Both the position numbers and the translations under genes were made by a program. Below are positions 483 through 16,035 of a DNA stretch of 20,828 nt, piece by piece (position 1 is the stretch's first letter; each line of letters begins with the position of its first letter). Origin of the DNA: a virus. The stretch is from IMG/VR virus record IMGVR_UViG_3300002231_001865, positions 1 through 20,828 of that record; one strand, written 5' to 3'. The notes beneath the pieces were generated by a model. It ran no database searches, had not been told where the DNA came from, and was given only the letters and a program-made list of their open reading frames with translations.

Positions 483-850
483 GAGAATGGATCAGATCAA
501 AGTTATGGGCCCTGTCGGATTGGCTGTTCAATCCCAGGGTGCAGATTGGCGGGTTCGAGTGGTTTATGCCCCCCACAATAGGGGCCCGGCAGCCCGATCG
601 GTATAAAGCAACTGAGCGGGCAGAGCAGGCGGCGAGTAGAGCTGTGCCGCGAAAATACCTGGAACTGAGGCTGGTAGAGTTCACTATCACTGATCCAGTT
701 GACCCGACACAGCACGATCCTCTGGGCGAGCGCGGCACAGTATCCTGGAAGTACACACCGGAGGAGCCAAAACCGAAAGTTACAGTCACTGACGGCGGTG
801 CGCTGAAGCGAGACTCGGCCGAGGTGTCGGCGTACAGGAAGCGGAAATAA
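479..850 (+). CDS. Hypothetical protein, 123 residues, with G-T-V-S-W-K-Y motif
   Basis: I chose ATG 479 because it overlaps the preceding microprotein stop as ATGA. The frame stays open further upstream to a GTG at 380, but that extension would cover the membrane microprotein. The N-terminus is aromatic and rich in Trp, Leu and Phe, the middle is charged, and a beta-like segment (Y-L-E-L-R-L-V-E-F) leads to G-T-V-S-W-K-Y. This motif corresponds to the W-R-Y motif of the two genes upstream. A basic tail ends the protein. The stop TAA 848-850 shares a base with the next ATG. Function unknown. Confidence 0.65.
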   Translation: MREWIRSKLWALSDWLFNPRVQIGGFEWFMPPTIGARQPDRYKATERAEQAASRAVPRKYLELRLVEFTITDPVDPTQHDPLGERGTVSWKYTPEEPKPKVTVTDGGALKRDSAEVSAYRKRK

Positions 851-1179
851 TGGACAGCACCAGGCGCACATTCATCAAGGCTGCCGCCCTCCCTGCGCTG
901 AGCATACTCTCGTATATTCGCGCTGGTCCTGAAGGCGATGGGCTCTTTATGTATTGTGGTAAGTGCCGCAAGCCGGTGCTGCGGTTTGTGGGCAACGACA
1001 TGGGGTCTCTGAAGCAGATCAAGGCGCGTCTCAAGGCAGATGGCGTGATCCGGTCGGCTGATTGGGAGAGTCTGGACGATCCCGCGTATCCGAAGTACGG
1101 GAGCACGTCCCGCCCATGTCATCATTGTGGGAAACCGTTTAAACTGACGTTGAATCTACTGAGGCCACAAGATGGATAG
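850..1179 (+). CDS. Tat-signal-like zinc-ribbon protein
   Basis: The protein is 109 residues. Residues 3-10 read S-T-R-R-T-F-I-K, very close to the twin-arginine export consensus (S/T-R-R-x-F-L-K). A short Ala/Leu-rich hydrophobic stretch follows to about residue 23. The remainder has two CxxC knuckles, C36-C39 and C90-C93, as in a four-cysteine zinc ribbon. Tat exports folded, often metal-bound proteins, so a small zinc protein carried to the periplasm or held in the membrane is a coherent reading. No clear A-x-A cleavage site is visible. The start overlaps the previous stop by one base. A Tat-type signal on a phage gene is unusual, and the next gene has one too. The metal and function are inferred. 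Confidence 0.65.
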   Translation: MDSTRRTFIKAAALPALSILSYIRAGPEGDGLFMYCGKCRKPVLRFVGNDMGSLKQIKARLKADGVIRSADWESLDDPAYPKYGSTSRPCHHCGKPFKLTLNLLRPQDG

Positions 1180-1459
1180 ACGAACATTCCTACTTGAGGC
1201 AGTTACAGCGATTGGCGCTGCTGTGGTCGCGCCCCTGGCCAGGTTATTTAAGCCGGACGTGAATACTACACCGATCGAGCCAGCGTATACGGTGCTGACC
1301 GACAGCCTGACTGCGGGCGCGGGGCCGCCTGTTGAGGACGAGATATCTCTGGAACAGTTGAGGCTAATTGTGCGAGAGTTAAAGAAACACAAGGCGCCGA
1401 TCATTTGGGACGGAAAGATGTGTTGGTATCAGGAACCGGACCCCAGCCCTGAGGGATAG
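1172..1459 (+). CDS. Second Tat-signal-like small protein
   Basis: The protein is 95 residues and begins M-D-R-R-T-F-L-L, again matching the twin-arginine motif. A hydrophobic Ala/Val-rich segment spans residues about 9-23. After this come a Pro/Thr-rich linker, an amphipathic helix around residues 58-72 (Q-L-R-L-I-V-R-E-L-K-K-H), then a W-D-G and C-W-Y region near the C-terminus. A GAGG Shine-Dalgarno at a suitable distance precedes ATG 1172, and the gene overlaps its neighbour by 8 nt. The mature part is not recognised. Two adjacent genes with this signal type suggest a pair of exported or membrane-tethered proteins acting together. Confidence 0.6.
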   Translation: MDRRTFLLEAVTAIGAAVVAPLARLFKPDVNTTPIEPAYTVLTDSLTAGAGPPVEDEISLEQLRLIVRELKKHKAPIIWDGKMCWYQEPDPSPEG

Positions 1460-3323: not shown

Positions 3324-3545
3324 GTGGATGCGCTATCAAAGCGGGTTACAGATATCTGCGTGGTGCTGATAACGGCCGCAATCATCTGGGCCGCCGGTAC
3401 GATAACCCTCGCTGCAAGCGATATTGACGTGATGCAGCGTGATGTCACCGAGATCAGGGATACTCTCAAAGGGCAGGAGACGCGGATTCGCGCTGCGGAA
3501 CTCGCGATTGCCCGGATGGAGGGTCTCAGCCCGAGGGAAGGCTGA
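3324..3545 (+). CDS. Single-pass membrane protein with coiled coil
   Basis: AGGAGG precedes GTG 3324 at a good distance. Of 73 residues, about 11-31 form one transmembrane helix (V-V-L-I-T-A-A-I-I-W-A-A-G). This is followed by an amphipathic coiled-coil stretch to about residue 66 (D-V-T-E-I-R-D-T-L). This architecture occurs in phage inner-membrane lysis proteins (small holins or i-spanins) and in other membrane anchors. There is no endolysin beside it in the window, so the lysis reading is only a suggestion. Its stop shares a base with the next ATG. Confidence 0.65.
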   Translation: MDALSKRVTDICVVLITAAIIWAAGTITLAASDIDVMQRDVTEIRDTLKGQETRIRAAELAIARMEGLSPREG

Positions 3546-7394: not shown

Positions 7395-7982
7395 ATGGAC
7401 TTTGAACGCAAACCGGAATTCGATCGTCCGCCGGAAATAACGGACGACCGCCACTGGGCGTGGATCCTACTGGTAGTAGCGGGGACCAACGCGTCCGCGG
7501 CCGCCCGCGAGGTGGGTTATACAGAGAAGTACTCGAAGAATCAGGGCCACCGGCTCCGAAGGCGGTATAAGGAGGTCCTGGAGAAACTGATCAAGGAGGA
7601 TCTGGACTACCTGGAGTCCAATGCACACCGGATCTTAGCTGCAACTGCAGCGCTGGCTTATTCAAATATGGACAATTACCTAGTCGAGGTATTGATTCCA
7701 GAGGAAGTCGATGAGGACGGCGTTGTTATTGAGAGCGCCCGGAGGGAATTCAGGTTTAAACCGTGGGATGAGATTGATATCGCAGACAAGGCCGCAATTA
7801 GGAGAATTGAGACCAAGCCTGATGGGACCATTAACATTTGGTTGCACGGGAAGGAGAGGCCGCTGGAACTGCTGGGCCAACACGAGAGCCTTTGGGGCAA
7901 GGAGATTGGCGAGAGAACGGTAGTTCACCTCAACAATCATTACGGCCCGGATGCGCCGACGTTCCCAGAAAATGTTGGCTAA
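7395..7982 (+). CDS. terS: Terminase small subunit
   Basis: The 195-residue protein binds the packaging start site and recruits the large subunit. Residues about 24-60 form the helix-turn-helix region typical of the Terminase_2/XtmA type (W-I-L-L-V-V-A-G-T-N-A-S-A-A-A-R-E-V-G-Y). A coiled-coil-like helical section follows to about 95. The C-terminal part has the I-K/R...L-H-G-K-E-R-P-L-E-L-L-G-Q-H motif seen near the end of many small subunits. A GGTGA precedes ATG 7395. It overlaps the large-subunit frame by 32 nt, and that pairing strengthens the call. Confidence 0.8.
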   Translation: MDFERKPEFDRPPEITDDRHWAWILLVVAGTNASAAAREVGYTEKYSKNQGHRLRRRYKEVLEKLIKEDLDYLESNAHRILAATAALAYSNMDNYLVEVLIPEEVDEDGVVIESARREFRFKPWDEIDIADKAAIRRIETKPDGTINIWLHGKERPLELLGQHESLWGKEIGERTVVHLNNHYGPDAPTFPENVG

Positions 7983-10578
7983 GGACTATTTCCCGATACG
8001 CCGGGTAGCGATGAGGACGGCGGCCGAGGTTAGGGAGCGATATATCAACTATATCGCCCTGCCCACCGCAGAGAAGTTTCACGCGCAAACAGGGATTAAC
8101 CGGTTTGTCATGGGCCATTTTGCTAGCGGCAAGACGGTGATGATGATCCAGGAGCTGATCCGTGAGGCGCAGCTCCAGCGGATATTTTTGCAGCGCCGAT
8201 GCTCTCGCTTTGCGATTATCCGTAATACGTACCCACAGCTCAAATCGACAACGATCAAGACTTTTCAGCAGTGGCTACCAGAGGATATCTGCCCGATCAC
8301 CTATGGCTCGCCAATTATTGGTCGGTATCGCCATGGCATGCCGGACGGCACGACGATCGATATAGAGTTTGTGTTTATCGCGCTTGATAAGCCGAAACAT
8401 GTGGCCAACCTGCTTTCAATGGAATTGACGGGCGCCATGATCCATGAATTCCGAGAAGTGCCCAAGGCGATTGTTGATGCGGTTGGTGGCAGGGTAGGAC
8501 GGTTTCCCGCACCCAAGGACGGGGGCTGGGCTCGTAAGTTCGTGATAGGGGATTCAAACCCGCCGGACGACGATCATTGGATATTCACCTCGTTTGAAGA
8601 TCCGGAGCATGATCTATACGTAGGGGATAATCCGGACTGGTGGCTTTTTAAGCAGCCGCCAGCGATTGTTAAGGGCAGGAATGGCTGGGAGCCAAATAAA
8701 GGCCAGGTCCAGGGGATACCGCCCGCAGAGAACTGGATCAATGTAGAAAACCTGGAGATCGGCCAGACATGCACTCTGGAGGAGGCGTCTTTCAAGTATT
8801 GGATGGACATGATCCCGAACAAGACTGCCCAATGGATCAAGGTCTATCTGGAAGGCAAATACGGCACCATCTCAGATGGCCTGCCGGTATACGGCGATCA
8901 CTGGGGGGGCGCATTTCATACCTCTGAATACGACCTAGTCCCGATAAAGAACAGGGATATCTTTCTTGGATGGGACTGGGGGTTGTGCTATGACGATCAA
9001 ACGGAAGTACTGACAAGGGACGGCTGGAAACTGTTTAAGGACGTTGACGAGAAGATTGATACCGTTGCGACCCGGGACCCGAAGACTGGGCGTATGTCAT
9101 ACACGGGCATCAATTTCAAAGTGGACAGGCAGTACAAGGGGCCGATGCTGCAGTGCGAGACCCAGAACGTCAATTTTTGTGTTACACCCGAGCATAGGAT
9201 TCCTTATACGAAACGGGATTACCCGGGGGATGTGAGGTTTGCAGAGGCAGGGTGGGTTCGAGATCATTCTACAGCGCATTTGTATGTCGATTTGGTTAGT
9301 GTATGGGAGGGGAAGAACCCGCGAGAGATATTCGGGATGGAACCGCATGTGTTTGCTGGGTTTATGGGGATTTATCTATCAGAGGGGTGCGTAGATAAAA
9401 AGTATGGCCGGATAATTATTTATCAGAATGTCCGGGATAGAGAAATTCAAGAACTCCTTGACAGAACTGGTCTGGTCTGGAAGTACTCCAAATACGGTAA
9501 GACTGGCTCTTGGCGGTTGAGGAACAATAATCTGGCAGATTTTCTCAGGCCTCTGGGGAAATCATATGAAAAGAGAATTCCAGGAATTGTTCGGGATCTC
9601 TCTCAGGGCTGCCTTCGAGAATTTATTCGATTCTTCACTATTGGTGATGGTCATATTCGAACCAGAAAGAATGGGTCTTTAGAACATGTGTGTTTCACAA
9701 CATCATTAGTAATGGCAGGGGATTTAGCAGAAATCGCACAGAAGATTGGCTGGTACACATCCCAGACGGTGGTACAGCCGCAGTCAAGTGTGATCATGGA
9801 AGGGAATACTGCCAGGGTTATTCAGTCAAGGCGTATTGGGTACGCAATCATATTTAAGAAGAAGGCGAAGCGAGCAGAGCTGCTAAAGACGGCATGGAGT
9901 GAAGTCGAGTACGATGGCCGGATATATTGTCTGAACGTCCCCTACCACACTCTATATATCAGAAGGAATGGAAGGCCGTCTTGGAACGGGAATACCCCAG
10001 CATGTATTGTTGGGCAGATGATGCCAAGCGGACAACTCCGAATTCTGGAGGAATTCTGCGCTACCTCGATGGGGCTACGGAATTTCGCTGAGAATGTGGT
10101 CAGGCCGGTTATCTCGACAAAATATAGAGGACGGAAGATACAGTCGGAGGGTGATCCATCTGGGCGCAGCAGGGATTATGAGGAGCACGATGCTTTTCAG
10201 ATTTGTAATGATGTGTTCAAGGCGGATAGGGGCGGATTTTTCACCAACCCGTCTTCAACGAACGATTTGCGGCCGAGATTGGAATCTGTGCGTTTCTTTC
10301 TCAGTAGGACGATAGGGGCGGGCCAGCCAGCATTTCTGATCGACCCGCGCTGCAAGATGTTGATTCGGGGCTTTGAAGGGCATTACAGATACAGAATGAT
10401 GCAGATTGTGGGTGAGACGAAGTATTACGCGACCCCAGATAAAAACGCCTGGAGTCATCCGCATGATGCGCTGCAGGCGCTGTGCCTAATGATCAGCCCT
10501 GGGACGGATCAACGGACAGAACTCCCGTTAATGGGACAGGCGCATGCACGGCCATTGGATAAGGTGACTAATTTTTGA
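7951..10578 (+). CDS. terL: Terminase large subunit, interrupted by an intein
   Basis: The precursor is 875 residues. Removing the intein (346-681) leaves 539, an ordinary TerL size. The ATPase part has a Walker A G55-H-F-A-S-G-K61-T62, a Walker B-like A-M-I-H-E166 whose usual first acidic residue is His, and a coupling motif D-S-N-P-P-D. The RuvC-like nuclease has D342 in G-W-D-W-G, D735 in G-D-P-S-G and D839 in S-H-P-H-D-A. It cuts concatemers and powers DNA into the prohead through the portal. ATG 7951 overlaps terS by 32 nt and lacks a strong ribosome binding site; in-frame ATG 7972 is an alternative. The stop overlaps the portal start. Confidence 0.92.
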   Translation: MRRRSQKMLAKDYFPIRRVAMRTAAEVRERYINYIALPTAEKFHAQTGINRFVMGHFASGKTVMMIQELIREAQLQRIFLQRRCSRFAIIRNTYPQLKSTTIKTFQQWLPEDICPITYGSPIIGRYRHGMPDGTTIDIEFVFIALDKPKHVANLLSMELTGAMIHEFREVPKAIVDAVGGRVGRFPAPKDGGWARKFVIGDSNPPDDDHWIFTSFEDPEHDLYVGDNPDWWLFKQPPAIVKGRNGWEPNKGQVQGIPPAENWINVENLEIGQTCTLEEASFKYWMDMIPNKTAQWIKVYLEGKYGTISDGLPVYGDHWGGAFHTSEYDLVPIKNRDIFLGWDWGLCYDDQTEVLTRDGWKLFKDVDEKIDTVATRDPKTGRMSYTGINFKVDRQYKGPMLQCETQNVNFCVTPEHRIPYTKRDYPGDVRFAEAGWVRDHSTAHLYVDLVSVWEGKNPREIFGMEPHVFAGFMGIYLSEGCVDKKYGRIIIYQNVRDREIQELLDRTGLVWKYSKYGKTGSWRLRNNNLADFLRPLGKSYEKRIPGIVRDLSQGCLREFIRFFTIGDGHIRTRKNGSLEHVCFTTSLVMAGDLAEIAQKIGWYTSQTVVQPQSSVIMEGNTARVIQSRRIGYAIIFKKKAKRAELLKTAWSEVEYDGRIYCLNVPYHTLYIRRNGRPSWNGNTPACIVGQMMPSGQLRILEEFCATSMGLRNFAENVVRPVISTKYRGRKIQSEGDPSGRSRDYEEHDAFQICNDVFKADRGGFFTNPSSTNDLRPRLESVRFFLSRTIGAGQPAFLIDPRCKMLIRGFEGHYRYRMMQIVGETKYYATPDKNAWSHPHDALQALCLMISPGTDQRTELPLMGQAHARPLDKVTNF
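8986..9993 (+). other. Intein with LAGLIDADG endonuclease inside TerL
   Basis: This is a 336-residue intein. It begins with Cys (C-Y-D-D-Q-T-E-V-L) and has a block B T-P-E-H at V-T-P-E-H-R-I. Two LAGLIDADG helices follow, F-A-G-F-M-G-I-Y-L-S-E-G and L-R-E-F-I-R-F-F-T-I-G-D-G, with acidic residues at intein positions 133 and 221. Block F is Y-H-T-L-Y-I-R-R-N-G, and it ends W-N-G-N before Thr. The penultimate residue is Gly rather than the usual His. Ligated exteins read G-W-D-W-G-L-T-P-A-C, restoring nuclease motif I. The endonuclease section (about 9300-9900) is visibly more AT-rich than the flanks, fitting horizontal spread. Splicing is inferred. Confidence 0.92.
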
Positions 10579-12794
10579 TTACCGATCATGAAGTGCAGTT
10601 GCTGCGGAAGGACAAGTCCAGAGCAATACGACTCGGCGAGCGCCTCGCGGGCGTTATCGAGCAAGCTGTCTATGACCGTCTGCCGTTCGAGGCCCGCTGG
10701 CTTGAGGATTTACGTCAGATCAACGAGATTATTCCCACAGTGGGCAAATCGAAAGATGACGTTTTTGCTCAGACGGGAATAGGCCGGGCGAACGTATTTG
10801 CCAATATCACACGCCCGAAGACAGAGACGGCCATCGCCCAGCTCGAGGAGATGAGCATACCCAATGACGACAAGAACTGGAGCATAAATCCGACACCGGT
10901 GCCCGAGATAGCCGGCGAGATGATGAATAACGAGATCGCGCAGAATGAACGCGGTCAGACCGTCGAAAACCCCGAGACAGGCGAGCCCTTCACTTGGTCC
11001 GAAGTAGCGGCCAAGACGATGGAGGAAGCTACCGACAAGGCCAAAGCGATGAGTCGGCAGATCGAAGACGATCTGGTTCAGACGCAGTTCAACGTGGTGC
11101 AACGTCAGGTCCAGAAGAGCGCGGTGATCTATGGCACAGGGATAATCAAAGGACCGATCAAAGAGGAGCGGATCAAGAAGAAGTGGCGGCAGCGCAACTA
11201 CGCCGATCTGGATGATCAGGGCAATATCGTTGGCCGAGGCAAGGATTGGGTCTTGGATATGGCCACGATCTCTCAGCCAGGGGCGGGCGTCGTGGATATC
11301 TGGAACGCATTCCCAGACCTCTCGGCACGGACGCTGAAGCAGTGTGAGTACTTTCTGGAGCGTTCCTACCACGTCAGAAAGTCGCTGGTGCAGCTCCAGC
11401 ACATCCCTGGCGTAAACCTCGAACAGCTCAAGCTGGCGATTGAGCGGGGGCCTGGTGAGTCGCAGACCCATGGCAGCACGTACATTGACCGGATGCGCGA
11501 GATCAATGGACAGATCCGGTTGATGAGCGATAACCGCTATGAGCAGTGGCGGTATCACGGCCCGGTTAATGGCGAGGACCTGATCGCAACGGGTGCCAGC
11601 ATTTATGGTGACATGAGCACGTCCCTGGACATGCAGGATGCCATTATCTGGATGGTGGGTAGTCAGCCGATCCGGGCGGTGCTGAACCCACTGGATTCAA
11701 AGGAATGGCCCTACGGCATCTTTGTATGGGAGGAGGACGACGCATCGATCTTCGGATTTGGCGTACCCTATCGAGTGCGCAATCCACAACGGATCATGAA
11801 CACGTCCTGGAACATGCTTCTGGACCATGCCGGCCACATCGCGGGCCCGCAGATTATTATTGACCGCAAATTGCTGGACCCTGTTGATAAGCAATGGGAC
11901 AACCTGCACCCATTCAAGGTCTGGCAGTTCAACGCGAAAGAGGCGGGGCCCAATCTCAAACCGGGCGATGTCTTCCACTTCGCGCAGATCGATTCCAATC
12001 AGGAAGCGATTGCGAATATATACGATATGGCCCGACTCCTCATGGATGAGGTCAGCCAGATTCAGACCCAAAATCAAGGGCTTGGGCAACAACAGAACAA
12101 GATGGGCGCGGACACGCTTGGTGGCATGATCCTGCTGCAGAATCAGAGCAGCGTGACGACCCGGCATCGCGTCCAGATGTGGGATGACAACATCATCAAG
12201 CCGATCATTACCCGGTTCTACGATTATGAGATGCAGTTCAACCCGAATGACGAGATTAAGGGAGACATGGAAGTCAATCCGAGAGGGACCTCGGCCCTTC
12301 TCGTCAAAGAACTGCAGACCAAGAGCTTGGTTGAGATGGCCAAACTGGGCGAGTCGGAGATCTACGCGCCGTATATCAAGCACGATGAAATCCTGAGACG
12401 GCTGCAGGCATCACTGCGCATCGAGGGCGAGGGCGTGGTCAAAAGCGAAGATGAGATCTCCCAGGAAGAACAGCAGGCTGCACAGCAGCAACAGCAACCG
12501 AGTCCGGAGGAGGAACTCAAGGAAGCGGAACTGGCGATCGATTCAGCCAGGGTCCAACTCGAGCAGCAGAAACTCCAAGTCATGGTGCAGCTCGCTATCC
12601 AGAAGATGGAGCATGAGGAGCGCATGGAGATGTTTAAACGTGCCAAAGAAGAAGGATTGAGTGATAAGCAACTCCAAGCCAAACTCTCCGAAACAGCGCT
12701 CAAAGAGTACAACACCAATGAGCGGTTCAAGGCTGAGGTTGATATAAAACTAAGGGAAGGCCAGACCGCCAATTACGGGCTGGAGGCGGCATGA
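10575..12794 (+). CDS. Portal protein, P22-like long type
   Basis: The 739-residue protein would form the dodecameric channel for DNA at one capsid vertex. Its length is close to P22 portal (about 725). It has an early basic/helical section, a large middle part, and a core near residues 510-560 with N-K-M-G-A-D-T-L-G-G-M-I-L-L-Q-N-Q and V-Q-M-W-D-D-N-I-I-K-P. That core is a pattern typical of podovirus portals. The C-terminus (about 625-739) is a Gln/Glu-rich helical extension with a short poly-Gln tract, suggesting a barrel or coiled coil inside the head. The TTG start overlaps the terL stop, with AAGGTGA upstream. The stop overlaps the sigma-factor start. Confidence 0.85.
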   Translation: MITDHEVQLLRKDKSRAIRLGERLAGVIEQAVYDRLPFEARWLEDLRQINEIIPTVGKSKDDVFAQTGIGRANVFANITRPKTETAIAQLEEMSIPNDDKNWSINPTPVPEIAGEMMNNEIAQNERGQTVENPETGEPFTWSEVAAKTMEEATDKAKAMSRQIEDDLVQTQFNVVQRQVQKSAVIYGTGIIKGPIKEERIKKKWRQRNYADLDDQGNIVGRGKDWVLDMATISQPGAGVVDIWNAFPDLSARTLKQCEYFLERSYHVRKSLVQLQHIPGVNLEQLKLAIERGPGESQTHGSTYIDRMREINGQIRLMSDNRYEQWRYHGPVNGEDLIATGASIYGDMSTSLDMQDAIIWMVGSQPIRAVLNPLDSKEWPYGIFVWEEDDASIFGFGVPYRVRNPQRIMNTSWNMLLDHAGHIAGPQIIIDRKLLDPVDKQWDNLHPFKVWQFNAKEAGPNLKPGDVFHFAQIDSNQEAIANIYDMARLLMDEVSQIQTQNQGLGQQQNKMGADTLGGMILLQNQSSVTTRHRVQMWDDNIIKPIITRFYDYEMQFNPNDEIKGDMEVNPRGTSALLVKELQTKSLVEMAKLGESEIYAPYIKHDEILRRLQASLRIEGEGVVKSEDEISQEEQQAAQQQQQPSPEEELKEAELAIDSARVQLEQQKLQVMVQLAIQKMEHEERMEMFKRAKEEGLSDKQLQAKLSETALKEYNTNERFKAEVDIKLREGQTANYGLEAA

Positions 12795-13573
12795 AGGATG
12801 CAGTGACCCTTTATCTCAAAGAGGTGTATCGCGGCGTCCTCTTGAACGATGACGAGGTTTGCGCGCTGGCCAGGCGCCGGGATGAGGGGGATATAAGCGC
12901 CCGCAATGAGCTTGTTGAGAAAAACCAGGGGTTGGTACAGAGGTGGGCACGGAACTATATACGGGCCATGCGCCATCTCCAGATGATCGATCTGATTCAG
13001 TACGGAAATATCGGCCTGATGCGGGCTGCAGATCTATACGATCCGGACCGGATCAACGCCCAGACGGGAAAGCCCTTCAAGTTCTCTACTTATGCGGTCT
13101 GGTGGATTCGGCAAACCATTGATCGTGGTGTGATGAACGATGATCGTGATGTACGGCTGCCGGTTCATATCCATAAACGGATCCGCAAGATGTTGCGCGG
13201 TGAAGCTGAGGATGATTGGCAGCTCGCTATATTGACGGATGGAAATCATATTGGAATCCGGACGGCTGGCCCGTATCGCTTTGAAGATGGAGAAGTTGAG
13301 TTACCGGACGAGCAGGACCACATCGGTGCGGTTGAGCACATGTACCTGATTGATGAAATCAAGGATATTCTGGAGCAGATGGTTGAGGACAGCCCATACG
13401 AGACGATGGAGCGGAACGTCCGTATATACCGCCGCCGGATGGGCCTTGATGGCCTTGACCCGGTTACCCTGGAGGAATGCGGGCAGGAGGTCGGAATGAC
13501 TCGGGAGCGGGTCCGCCAGGTATGTGAGGAGGTCAAAAAACAATTGAGGGTGAGACTGCACGAGTACGCGTAG
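12791..13573 (+). CDS. RNA polymerase sigma70-family factor
   Basis: The protein is 260 residues. Residues 1-35 resemble region 1.2 (D-A-V-T-L-Y-L-K-E-V). Residues about 36-127 are region 2, with L-I-Q-Y-G-N-I-G-L-M-R-A-A (core binding) and F-S-T-Y-A-V-W-W-I-R-Q (-10 melting and recognition), then V-R-L-P-V-H-I as in RpoD. Region 3 is much shortened. Residues about 186-256 are region 4, with a recognition helix M-T-R-E-R-V-R-Q at 236-243. It would steer host polymerase to housekeeping-like promoters. ATG 12791 overlaps the portal stop, so it is expected to be co-translated with a head protein. Phage sigma factors are known, but this placement is odd. Confidence 0.9.
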   Translation: MKDAVTLYLKEVYRGVLLNDDEVCALARRRDEGDISARNELVEKNQGLVQRWARNYIRAMRHLQMIDLIQYGNIGLMRAADLYDPDRINAQTGKPFKFSTYAVWWIRQTIDRGVMNDDRDVRLPVHIHKRIRKMLRGEAEDDWQLAILTDGNHIGIRTAGPYRFEDGEVELPDEQDHIGAVEHMYLIDEIKDILEQMVEDSPYETMERNVRIYRRRMGLDGLDPVTLEECGQEVGMTRERVRQVCEEVKKQLRVRLHEYA

Positions 13574-15024: not shown

Positions 15025-16035
15025 ATGGTGCTAACTGCATTCGGCGATATCGGTAATCGTACCGCCGGCTGGGTAGTTTCTGAGATGCTGGAGCATGCGA
15101 GACCGCAGCTCGTTCTGACAAAGTTTGGTCAGCATTTTATTATGCCAACCAACAGCTCGAACATTGCGCGTTTTCGGCGCCCCGTACCATTCTCGGTAGC
15201 TACTACGGCACTTACCGAAGGGCAGACGCCGACTGCCCAACAGATGTCCTACACGAACGTGACCGCGACCCTGCTGCAGTATGGTGCGGTGGTTGAGATC
15301 ACTGACAAAGTGCAGGACATGAATGAAGACCCAGTGTTGAAAGACGCTGCTCTTCTGTGCGGCGAACAGGCCGCGGCAACCATTGAGGTTTTGACCTGGA
15401 ACGTACTCCGTGCGGGTACGGCAGTGCTCTACGGAGCATCTGGTGACAGTGCCAGGACCGACGTGAATGATCCGATCTCCCTCTCCCGTCAACGAGCGGT
15501 TACGGCCGTCCTGAGACGTCAGAAAGGAAAGAAGATCAACAAAATGCTGTCGGGCTCGCCCGATGAGAACACCACCCCGATCGAGCAATCCTACATTGCT
15601 TTTGGTCACACCGAGCTTGAATCGGACATCAGGGATATGGCTGGGTTCGTCCCGGTAGCTCTGTATGGTTCGCGCGAGCGGCTGTGTGAGTTCGAGGTCG
15701 GCTCTTGTGAGGACACGCGGTATGTCCTGACAGCAGAGGTAACCAATTTCGCTGATAGCGGATCGTCCACTCTCAACGGCATGCGTTCAACCAGCGACTC
15801 GCAGGTTGACGTATATCCGATTGTATTCATCGCTCGCAATGGCTACGGTTGTGTGCCGCTGAAAGGGTTCAATTCAATCACTCCATCCGTCCTGAATCCT
15901 GGCACACCCAGCAAGTCTGACCCCCTGGGGCAGATCGGCTATGTGGGCTGGAAGACATGGTTTGTTGCAGTGATCCTGAATCAGACCTGGGTGCATCGAC
16001 TCGAAGTCGGCGTTACCGACCTGGGCGACGGATAA
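15025..16035 (+). CDS. Major capsid protein, N4-gp56 family
   Basis: The 336-residue protein would form the icosahedral shell with an HK97-like fold. Diagnostic sections for the N4-gp56 type are an N-terminal helix with K-F-G-Q-H-F-I-M-P, then F-R-R-P-V-P-F, then A-L-T-E-G-Q-T-P-T (about 63-71), and L-L-Q-Y-G-A-V-V-E-I-T-D (about 83-94). C-E-V-G-type receptor-loop strands and V-Y-P-I-V-F-I-A-R-N-G-Y-G come later. ACGGAGG lies at a good distance before ATG 15025. It follows the scaffold by 27 nt and is followed by a GC-rich hairpin, suiting high expression. Confidence 0.88.
   Translation: MVLTAFGDIGNRTAGWVVSEMLEHARPQLVLTKFGQHFIMPTNSSNIARFRRPVPFSVATTALTEGQTPTAQQMSYTNVTATLLQYGAVVEITDKVQDMNEDPVLKDAALLCGEQAAATIEVLTWNVLRAGTAVLYGASGDSARTDVNDPISLSRQRAVTAVLRRQKGKKINKMLSGSPDENTTPIEQSYIAFGHTELESDIRDMAGFVPVALYGSRERLCEFEVGSCEDTRYVLTAEVTNFADSGSSTLNGMRSTSDSQVDVYPIVFIARNGYGCVPLKGFNSITPSVLNPGTPSKSDPLGQIGYVGWKTWFVAVILNQTWVHRLEVGVTDLGDG

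Follow-up and report, generated by a model that had tools for sequence, protein, structure and literature searches.

Two small, overlapping genes of an uncultured phage, P1 and P2, both begin with Tat-type signals, and in P2 the signal seems to be fused to two segments from the capsid protein of the same phage. They lie in the window, by which we mean the whole stretch of DNA analysed, a linear 20.8-kb IMG/VR virus record with podovirus-like packaging and head genes. In other uncultured phages, we found by computation that like signals occur in tandem pairs, lie near terminase genes, are transferred between phages as DNA, and are joined to fragments of capsid, terminase, and portal-position genes, as P2 is to its capsid pieces. 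No description of this class was found. We give a probability of roughly 0.45 to the explanation that P1 and P2 are coupled Tat-signal proteins of a recurrent class in which a recombined signal precedes changing passengers and the signal would do most of the work. The features of the window are collected in Table 1.

Table 1. Positions of P1, P2, their parts, and the packaging and head genes in the window.
Feature	Position	Strand	Description
P1	850..1179	+	ORF, 109 aa; coding by codon usage; passes the Tat rules
P2	1172..1459	+	ORF, 95 aa; coding; passes the Tat rules; capsid match
P1 Tat-type signal	850..924	+	MDSTRRTFIKAAALPALSILSYIRA↓G (↓, plausible cleavage); TRRTFIK, 13-residue uncharged stretch
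P2 Tat-type signal	1172..1240	+	MDRRTFLLEAVTAIGAAVVAPLA; DRRTFL, 14-residue uncharged stretch
First CxxC of P1	955..966	+	C36GKC39, from the sequence
Second CxxC of P1	1117..1128	+	C90HHC93, from the sequence; sub-threshold zinc-finger Pfam matches
P2 residues 28-39	1253..1288	+	PDVNTTPIEPAY, like capsid residues 179-190 PDENTTPIEQSY
P2 residues 54-78	1331..1405	+	VEDEISLEQLRLIVRELKKHKAPII, like capsid residues 147-171 VNDPISLSRQRAVTAVLRRQKGKKI
Terminase small subunit (TerS)	7395-7982	+	phrog_51
Terminase large subunit (TerL)	7951-10578	+	phrog_2
Portal/adaptor	10575-12794		
Major capsid protein gene	15025..16035	+	phrog_1357, E=1.8e-52
Capsid gene segments, presumed sources for P2	15463-15537 and 15559-15594		

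The N-termini read MDSTRRTFIKAAALPALSILSYIRAG in P1 and MDRRTFLLEAVTAIGAAVVAPLARLFKP in P2. The ATG of P1 overlaps the stop of the upstream gene (TAATG), the stop of P1 overlaps the ATG of P2 at 1172 by 8 nt (ATGGATAG), and Shine-Dalgarno sequences of the AGGA and GAGG types lie 5' of the two starts. P1 and P2 would be translationally coupled. By codon usage, the annotated frame scored better than the other five for both genes, also when the N-terminal part was taken alone. TATFIND-like rules, which were re-implemented and applied to the six frames of the window, were passed only by P1 and P2, and both have a twin-arginine consensus near the N-terminus followed by at least 13 uncharged residues. 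A second, related filter (RRx[FLM][ILVMF]) gave a mean of 0.053 matches per dinucleotide-shuffled window, no adjacent pair in 150 shuffles, and no match in 503 kb of capsid-related phages. When the N-terminal residues were shuffled, 13 and 8 of 20,000 sequences passed the filter. The tests with shuffled sequences and with relatives indicate that the arrangement reported in the first-pass annotation, consecutive and overlapping phage genes with Tat-type N-termini, is beyond chance.

The signals resemble those of bacterial Tat substrates in the motif (S/T-R-R-x-F-I/L-K or DRRxFL), in the weakly hydrophobic h-region, and in the basic c-region, where each protein has a basic residue. The maximum KD19 was 1.23 for the weakly hydrophobic P1 signal and 1.85 for P2, below the 2.78 and 2.36 of the neighbouring TM proteins. 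P1 could plausibly be cleaved after IRA at an SPase-I-like site (IRA↓GP). No good AxA signal peptidase site was found in the P2 signal, which is probably uncleaved. P1 and P2 differ from the bacterial substrates in being phage-encoded, tiny, and tandem, with only putative export, and in falling below the Pfam cut-off: P1 scored 12-14 bits and P2 scored 8 bits with PF10518 (TAT_signal), whose cut-off is 22.7 bits. P2 differs further by its capsid-derived passenger. The NCBIfam models matched neither protein, and the glutamate directly after RRTFLL in P2 was counted against the Tat reading. A tblastn search of INPHARED with the signal peptides alone gave no useful match, a result made uninformative by the low-complexity filter. 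A weak match in Vibrio phage D479 was rejected, as it sits inside a structural gene.

Rz/Rz1 spanin pairs overlap and are often found near terminase genes in podoviruses, and P1 and P2 share with them the small size, the overlap, a putative envelope destination, and packaging genes nearby. They differ from spanins in having no lipobox, no coiled-coil ectodomain, and an overlap of just 8 nt. No lipobox cysteine was read in either N-terminus. The spanin reading of the pair was judged weaker, and so was a reading as TM anchors.

Searches of IMG/VR, GTDB genomes, and INPHARED returned no homologue of either P1 or P2; the first two relied on exact short patterns that could miss remote relatives. 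A pattern search for relatives by terminase gave no match, and a Tat ORF was present in 0 of 30 loci of capsid relatives, most of which end short of the equivalent upstream region. Because homologues were not found, the architecture was searched instead of the sequence. IMG/VR was scanned with three degenerate DNA patterns for RRxFLK-type starts. The resulting sample favours the codons and residues written into these patterns and gives no estimate of prevalence. The scan yielded 81 small ORFs with strong RRxFLK-type signals in 74 contigs, with one large marine-type family left out. Many of the related phage signals have canonical AxA sites (AFA↓NI, ALA↓TV, ALA↓TA). The first-pass annotation had called phage-encoded Tat substrates uncommon. 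Since narrow DNA patterns alone gave about 80 Tat-like ORFs outside one large family, such proteins are not uncommon in uncultured phages. Tandem Tat-type pairs occurred in five other contigs; four had a stop/start overlap (L073/L130, L117, L125/L129, and L151), and the fifth, L199, had a spaced pair with a 300-bp gap. The arrangement seen in the window thus recurs in other phages. As for the occurrence of the pair in other phages, which the same annotation had raised, the tandem arrangement was found again and homologues of P1 and P2 themselves were not.

The family left out comprises about 56 ORFs (L137, L145, L171, L206, and relatives), has M.RR.FLK..PGKPEWFD starts, and probably belongs to marine phages. 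It was set aside from the class counts because in some relatives RRxFLK and the hydrophobic segment do not start the protein but lie inside ORFs of 417-647 aa, after a GGRxGFK motif. The RRxFLK motif is therefore not always an N-terminal signal, which warns that it can serve another membrane role. The passengers of this family are conserved, which argues against passengers as mere ballast there.

A terminase was found on the contigs of 18 non-redundant Tat genes; 10 of the 18 were within 2 kb of it, a limit set after seeing the data (3.3 expected, P=2e-4), and 15 of 18 were on the terminase strand. PHROGs confirmed TerS and TerL beside the Tat genes in L130 (Tat-Tat-TerS-TerL), L131 (Tat-TerS-TerL), and L120 (TerS-Tat-TerL), and TerL in L129 (TerL-Tat-Tat). 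The window pair is on the same strand as its terminase genes and about 6 kb upstream of them, beyond the distance of about 2 kb that marks the class, and fits this pattern only loosely. The Tat-type genes would be expressed with or near the packaging genes.

The signal DNA was compared between contigs. The signal DNA of L108 was identical to that of L131, L112, or L100 at 69-71 of 72 nt (about 97-98%), and the flanks (60 nt upstream and 108 nt downstream) were at background identity. Between L150 and L151, the signal DNA was 89% identical. In 25 contig pairs, the signal DNA had an identity of 80% or more and each flank was below 45%; some of these pairs belong to the marine-type family, and since one contig can occur in several pairs, they are not independent. 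The 115 unique proteins, the marine-type family included, formed 48 passenger clusters, and 73 pairs of these proteins shared at least 62% of the signal without alignable passengers. Because about 70 nt of signal DNA are nearly identical between phages with unrelated flanks and passengers, the signal behaves as a transferable module. We suggest that a twin-arginine module of roughly 25 residues is recombined before short passengers that change rapidly.

Passengers often copy part of the capsid, terminase (nuclease), or portal-position gene of their own phage. A match to another gene of the same contig (E<1e-3) was found for 7 of 52 passenger clusters, compared with 22 of 670 control genes of matched size (P=0.003, Fisher test). 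The target was the major capsid protein in L144, L091/L107, and L199, and the terminase large subunit in L139, L160, L188, L194, and L101/L111. In L190 and L151, it was a protein of 640-750 aa downstream of the terminase; PHROGs did not recognise this protein, which from its position may be the portal. In L139, L160, L188, and L194, directly after a complete-looking terminase, a Tat-type signal leads into another copy of the terminase C-terminal part, 35-43% identical. Passengers of L084, L158, and L059 had been considered as P22-type coat pieces; PHROGs gave no confirmation, and the reading was dropped.

The likeness of the P2 passenger to the capsid protein had been missed in the first-pass annotation. 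Among all window proteins, the top score of this passenger was with the window's own capsid protein. Residues 28-39 were identical to the capsid at 9 of 12 positions (hhalign P=0.006; 26 of 36 nt identical to the capsid gene). Residues 54-78 gave an hhalign P of 1.4e-4 against the 25-sequence capsid family, with a nucleotide identity of just 29/75. The score of P2 against the capsid profile was above all 3000 shuffles. When the two best local scores of P2 against its own capsid were summed, z was 7.05 and 0 of 3000 shuffles reached the sum; the same sum against nine other large window proteins gave z from -1.0 to 1.3, and against the capsid family consensus it was reached by 44 of 3000 shuffles. 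Because the best single match, unpooled, was reached by 4 of 300 shuffles searching all window proteins, the capsid claim leans mainly on the agreement of the two segments. The reading is limited by their length (12 and 25 residues) and by their order: adjacent segments of the capsid occur swapped in P2, which could come from a tandem partial duplication with trimmed ends. The single-sequence AlphaFold model of P2 was poor (pLDDT 47). P2 thus shares two segments with the window's own member of phrog_1357, an HK97-type major head protein family, and the Tat passenger of L144 likewise matches the phrog_1357 capsid of L144. P2 differs from the family in having only these swapped pieces, too little for a capsid fold, behind a Tat signal.

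Partial, scrambled copies of neighbouring genes without conserved homologues could also be recombination scraps in a mosaic accessory region, with a Tat-like start arisen by chance and no selected function, and the HNH and LAGLIDADG endonucleases of the window suggest active recombination. We consider this very improbable. The genes keep their ribosome binding sites, codon usage, and stop/start overlaps; unrelated phages repeat the RR signal, the pairing, and the position near the terminase; and the DNA of the signal is conserved while the passengers change. Another explanation, suggested by passengers that derive from head and packaging proteins and by genes close to the terminase, is that the RRxFLK-hydrophobic segment is an anchor, not an export signal, and holds capsid, portal, or terminase pieces at the inner membrane for assembly, packaging, or ejection. 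The lack of a cleavage site in P2 and the position of the segment inside long proteins of the marine-type family agree with such tethering. However, the capsid, portal, and terminase segments differ between phages, which leaves no common virion interface and makes a tethering of assembly less likely. The hydrophobicity of P1 and P2 relative to their TM neighbours is also low for a stable anchor, and an anchor would not require so strong a twin-arginine consensus. On balance, tethering appears improbable.

The P1 passenger showed no similarity to virion proteins when compared with the window proteins. The first-pass annotation had noted its two CxxC pairs as fitting a metal-loaded protein; the pairs are present, and the fit to metal or zinc is weak, with the Pfam matches below threshold and a poor single-sequence AlphaFold model (pLDDT 49) in which strands flank both pairs. 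The pairs suggest a zinc ribbon for the passenger. P1 and P2 might be effectors exported by Tat whose mature parts work in the periplasm, with superinfection exclusion or envelope change as examples; function would then lie in the passengers, and their diversity would be the trace of an arms race. The first-pass annotation had listed envelope change, a superinfection block, and lysis as candidate roles. Tat moves folded proteins, two CxxC pairs fit metal-loaded cargo, and the canonical AxA sites of many related signals agree with export. L192 encodes a further Tat signal with a Cys-rich passenger, whose L151 homologue is without a signal. However, capsid pieces in P2 and terminase or portal-position pieces in several other phages are poor periplasmic candidates, P2 has no good cleavage site, and no homologues keep the passenger of P1 or P2. 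We hold the export of effectors as a tentative explanation only, nearly as likely as the reading in which the signal does the work, especially for P1.

Signal-led engagement of Tat or the membrane late in infection is the explanation we favour from these sequences. The signals would direct the proteins to TatBC in the inner membrane. As the passenger changes and the signal does not, the signal probably does most of the work: it may occupy the host Tat or anchor the protein at the membrane late in infection, and the cargo would be largely incidental. P1, which perhaps folds with zinc, might be exported as well. For P2, whose cargo is capsid scraps and whose signal has no good cleavage site, a location at the membrane is probable. 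Several points were counted against this explanation: the PF10518 scores below the cut-off, the glutamate and the lack of a good cleavage site in P2, the short and swapped capsid segments with the low nucleotide identity of the longer one, the 6 kb between the pair and the terminase, the P1 passenger without virion similarity, and the internal RRxFLK segment and conserved passengers of the marine-type family. It is also conceivable, and in our opinion rather unlikely, that a mobile Tat-signal cassette captures fragments of the phage's own late virion genes and so produces poor-cargo decoys, often in tandem, which bind TatBC and block host Tat export late in infection, weakening the envelope or altering superinfection.

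To our knowledge, no class of phage-encoded Tat substrates has been described, and no report of one was found in open-access full texts, a search to which subscription journals were largely external. Should the signals be real, the host Tat translocase is a late target of many uncultured phages. A fixed signal with a changing passenger copied from capsid or terminase would, if true, mean that genes are born by an unusual route, and it would offer a directly testable phage-host interface. In a 2026 Klebsiella screen, tatC was among the phage host factors (PMC13412088), and phage-encoded Tat signals were sought in that screen's own phages and none were found (PMC13412088). The releasin gp25 of phage Mu is a membrane protein with a twin-arginine motif and was proposed to borrow part of the Tat system (PMC9239132). 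It resembles P1 and P2 as a phage protein with a twin-arginine motif at the membrane, and differs in its reversed motif order, its role as a lysis regulator, and its lack of a Tat-type N-terminus.

Several other genes of the window were also identified. In the nuclease domain of TerL, DWGL is followed by an intein of about 330 aa (about residues 345-677) that has a match to LAGLIDADG_3. The terminases of the capsid relatives have no intein and align to TerL on both sides of its position. Positions 12791-13573, between the portal and scaffold genes, encode a sigma-70-type RNA polymerase sigma factor (phrog_351, Sigma70_r2), which had no match among the ORFs of the capsid relatives. Just downstream of the Tat pair, an HNH homing-type endonuclease (1699-2133, PF13392) hints at local recombination. 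Near the pair there are also a 38-aa single-TM ORF (366-482) and an ORF with a TM and a charged, coiled-coil-like part (3324-3545), and these small membrane proteins are possible lysis or envelope genes. The three upstream genes at 3-98, 133-369, and 479-850 have a C-terminal G-x(2)-xW(R/K)Y motif in common and are possibly paralogues. The W(R/K)Y motif also ends the Tat passengers of L077 and L125; the statistical support is weak, and the motif that the window genes 133-369 and 479-850 share with these two passengers from other phages is no more than suggestive.
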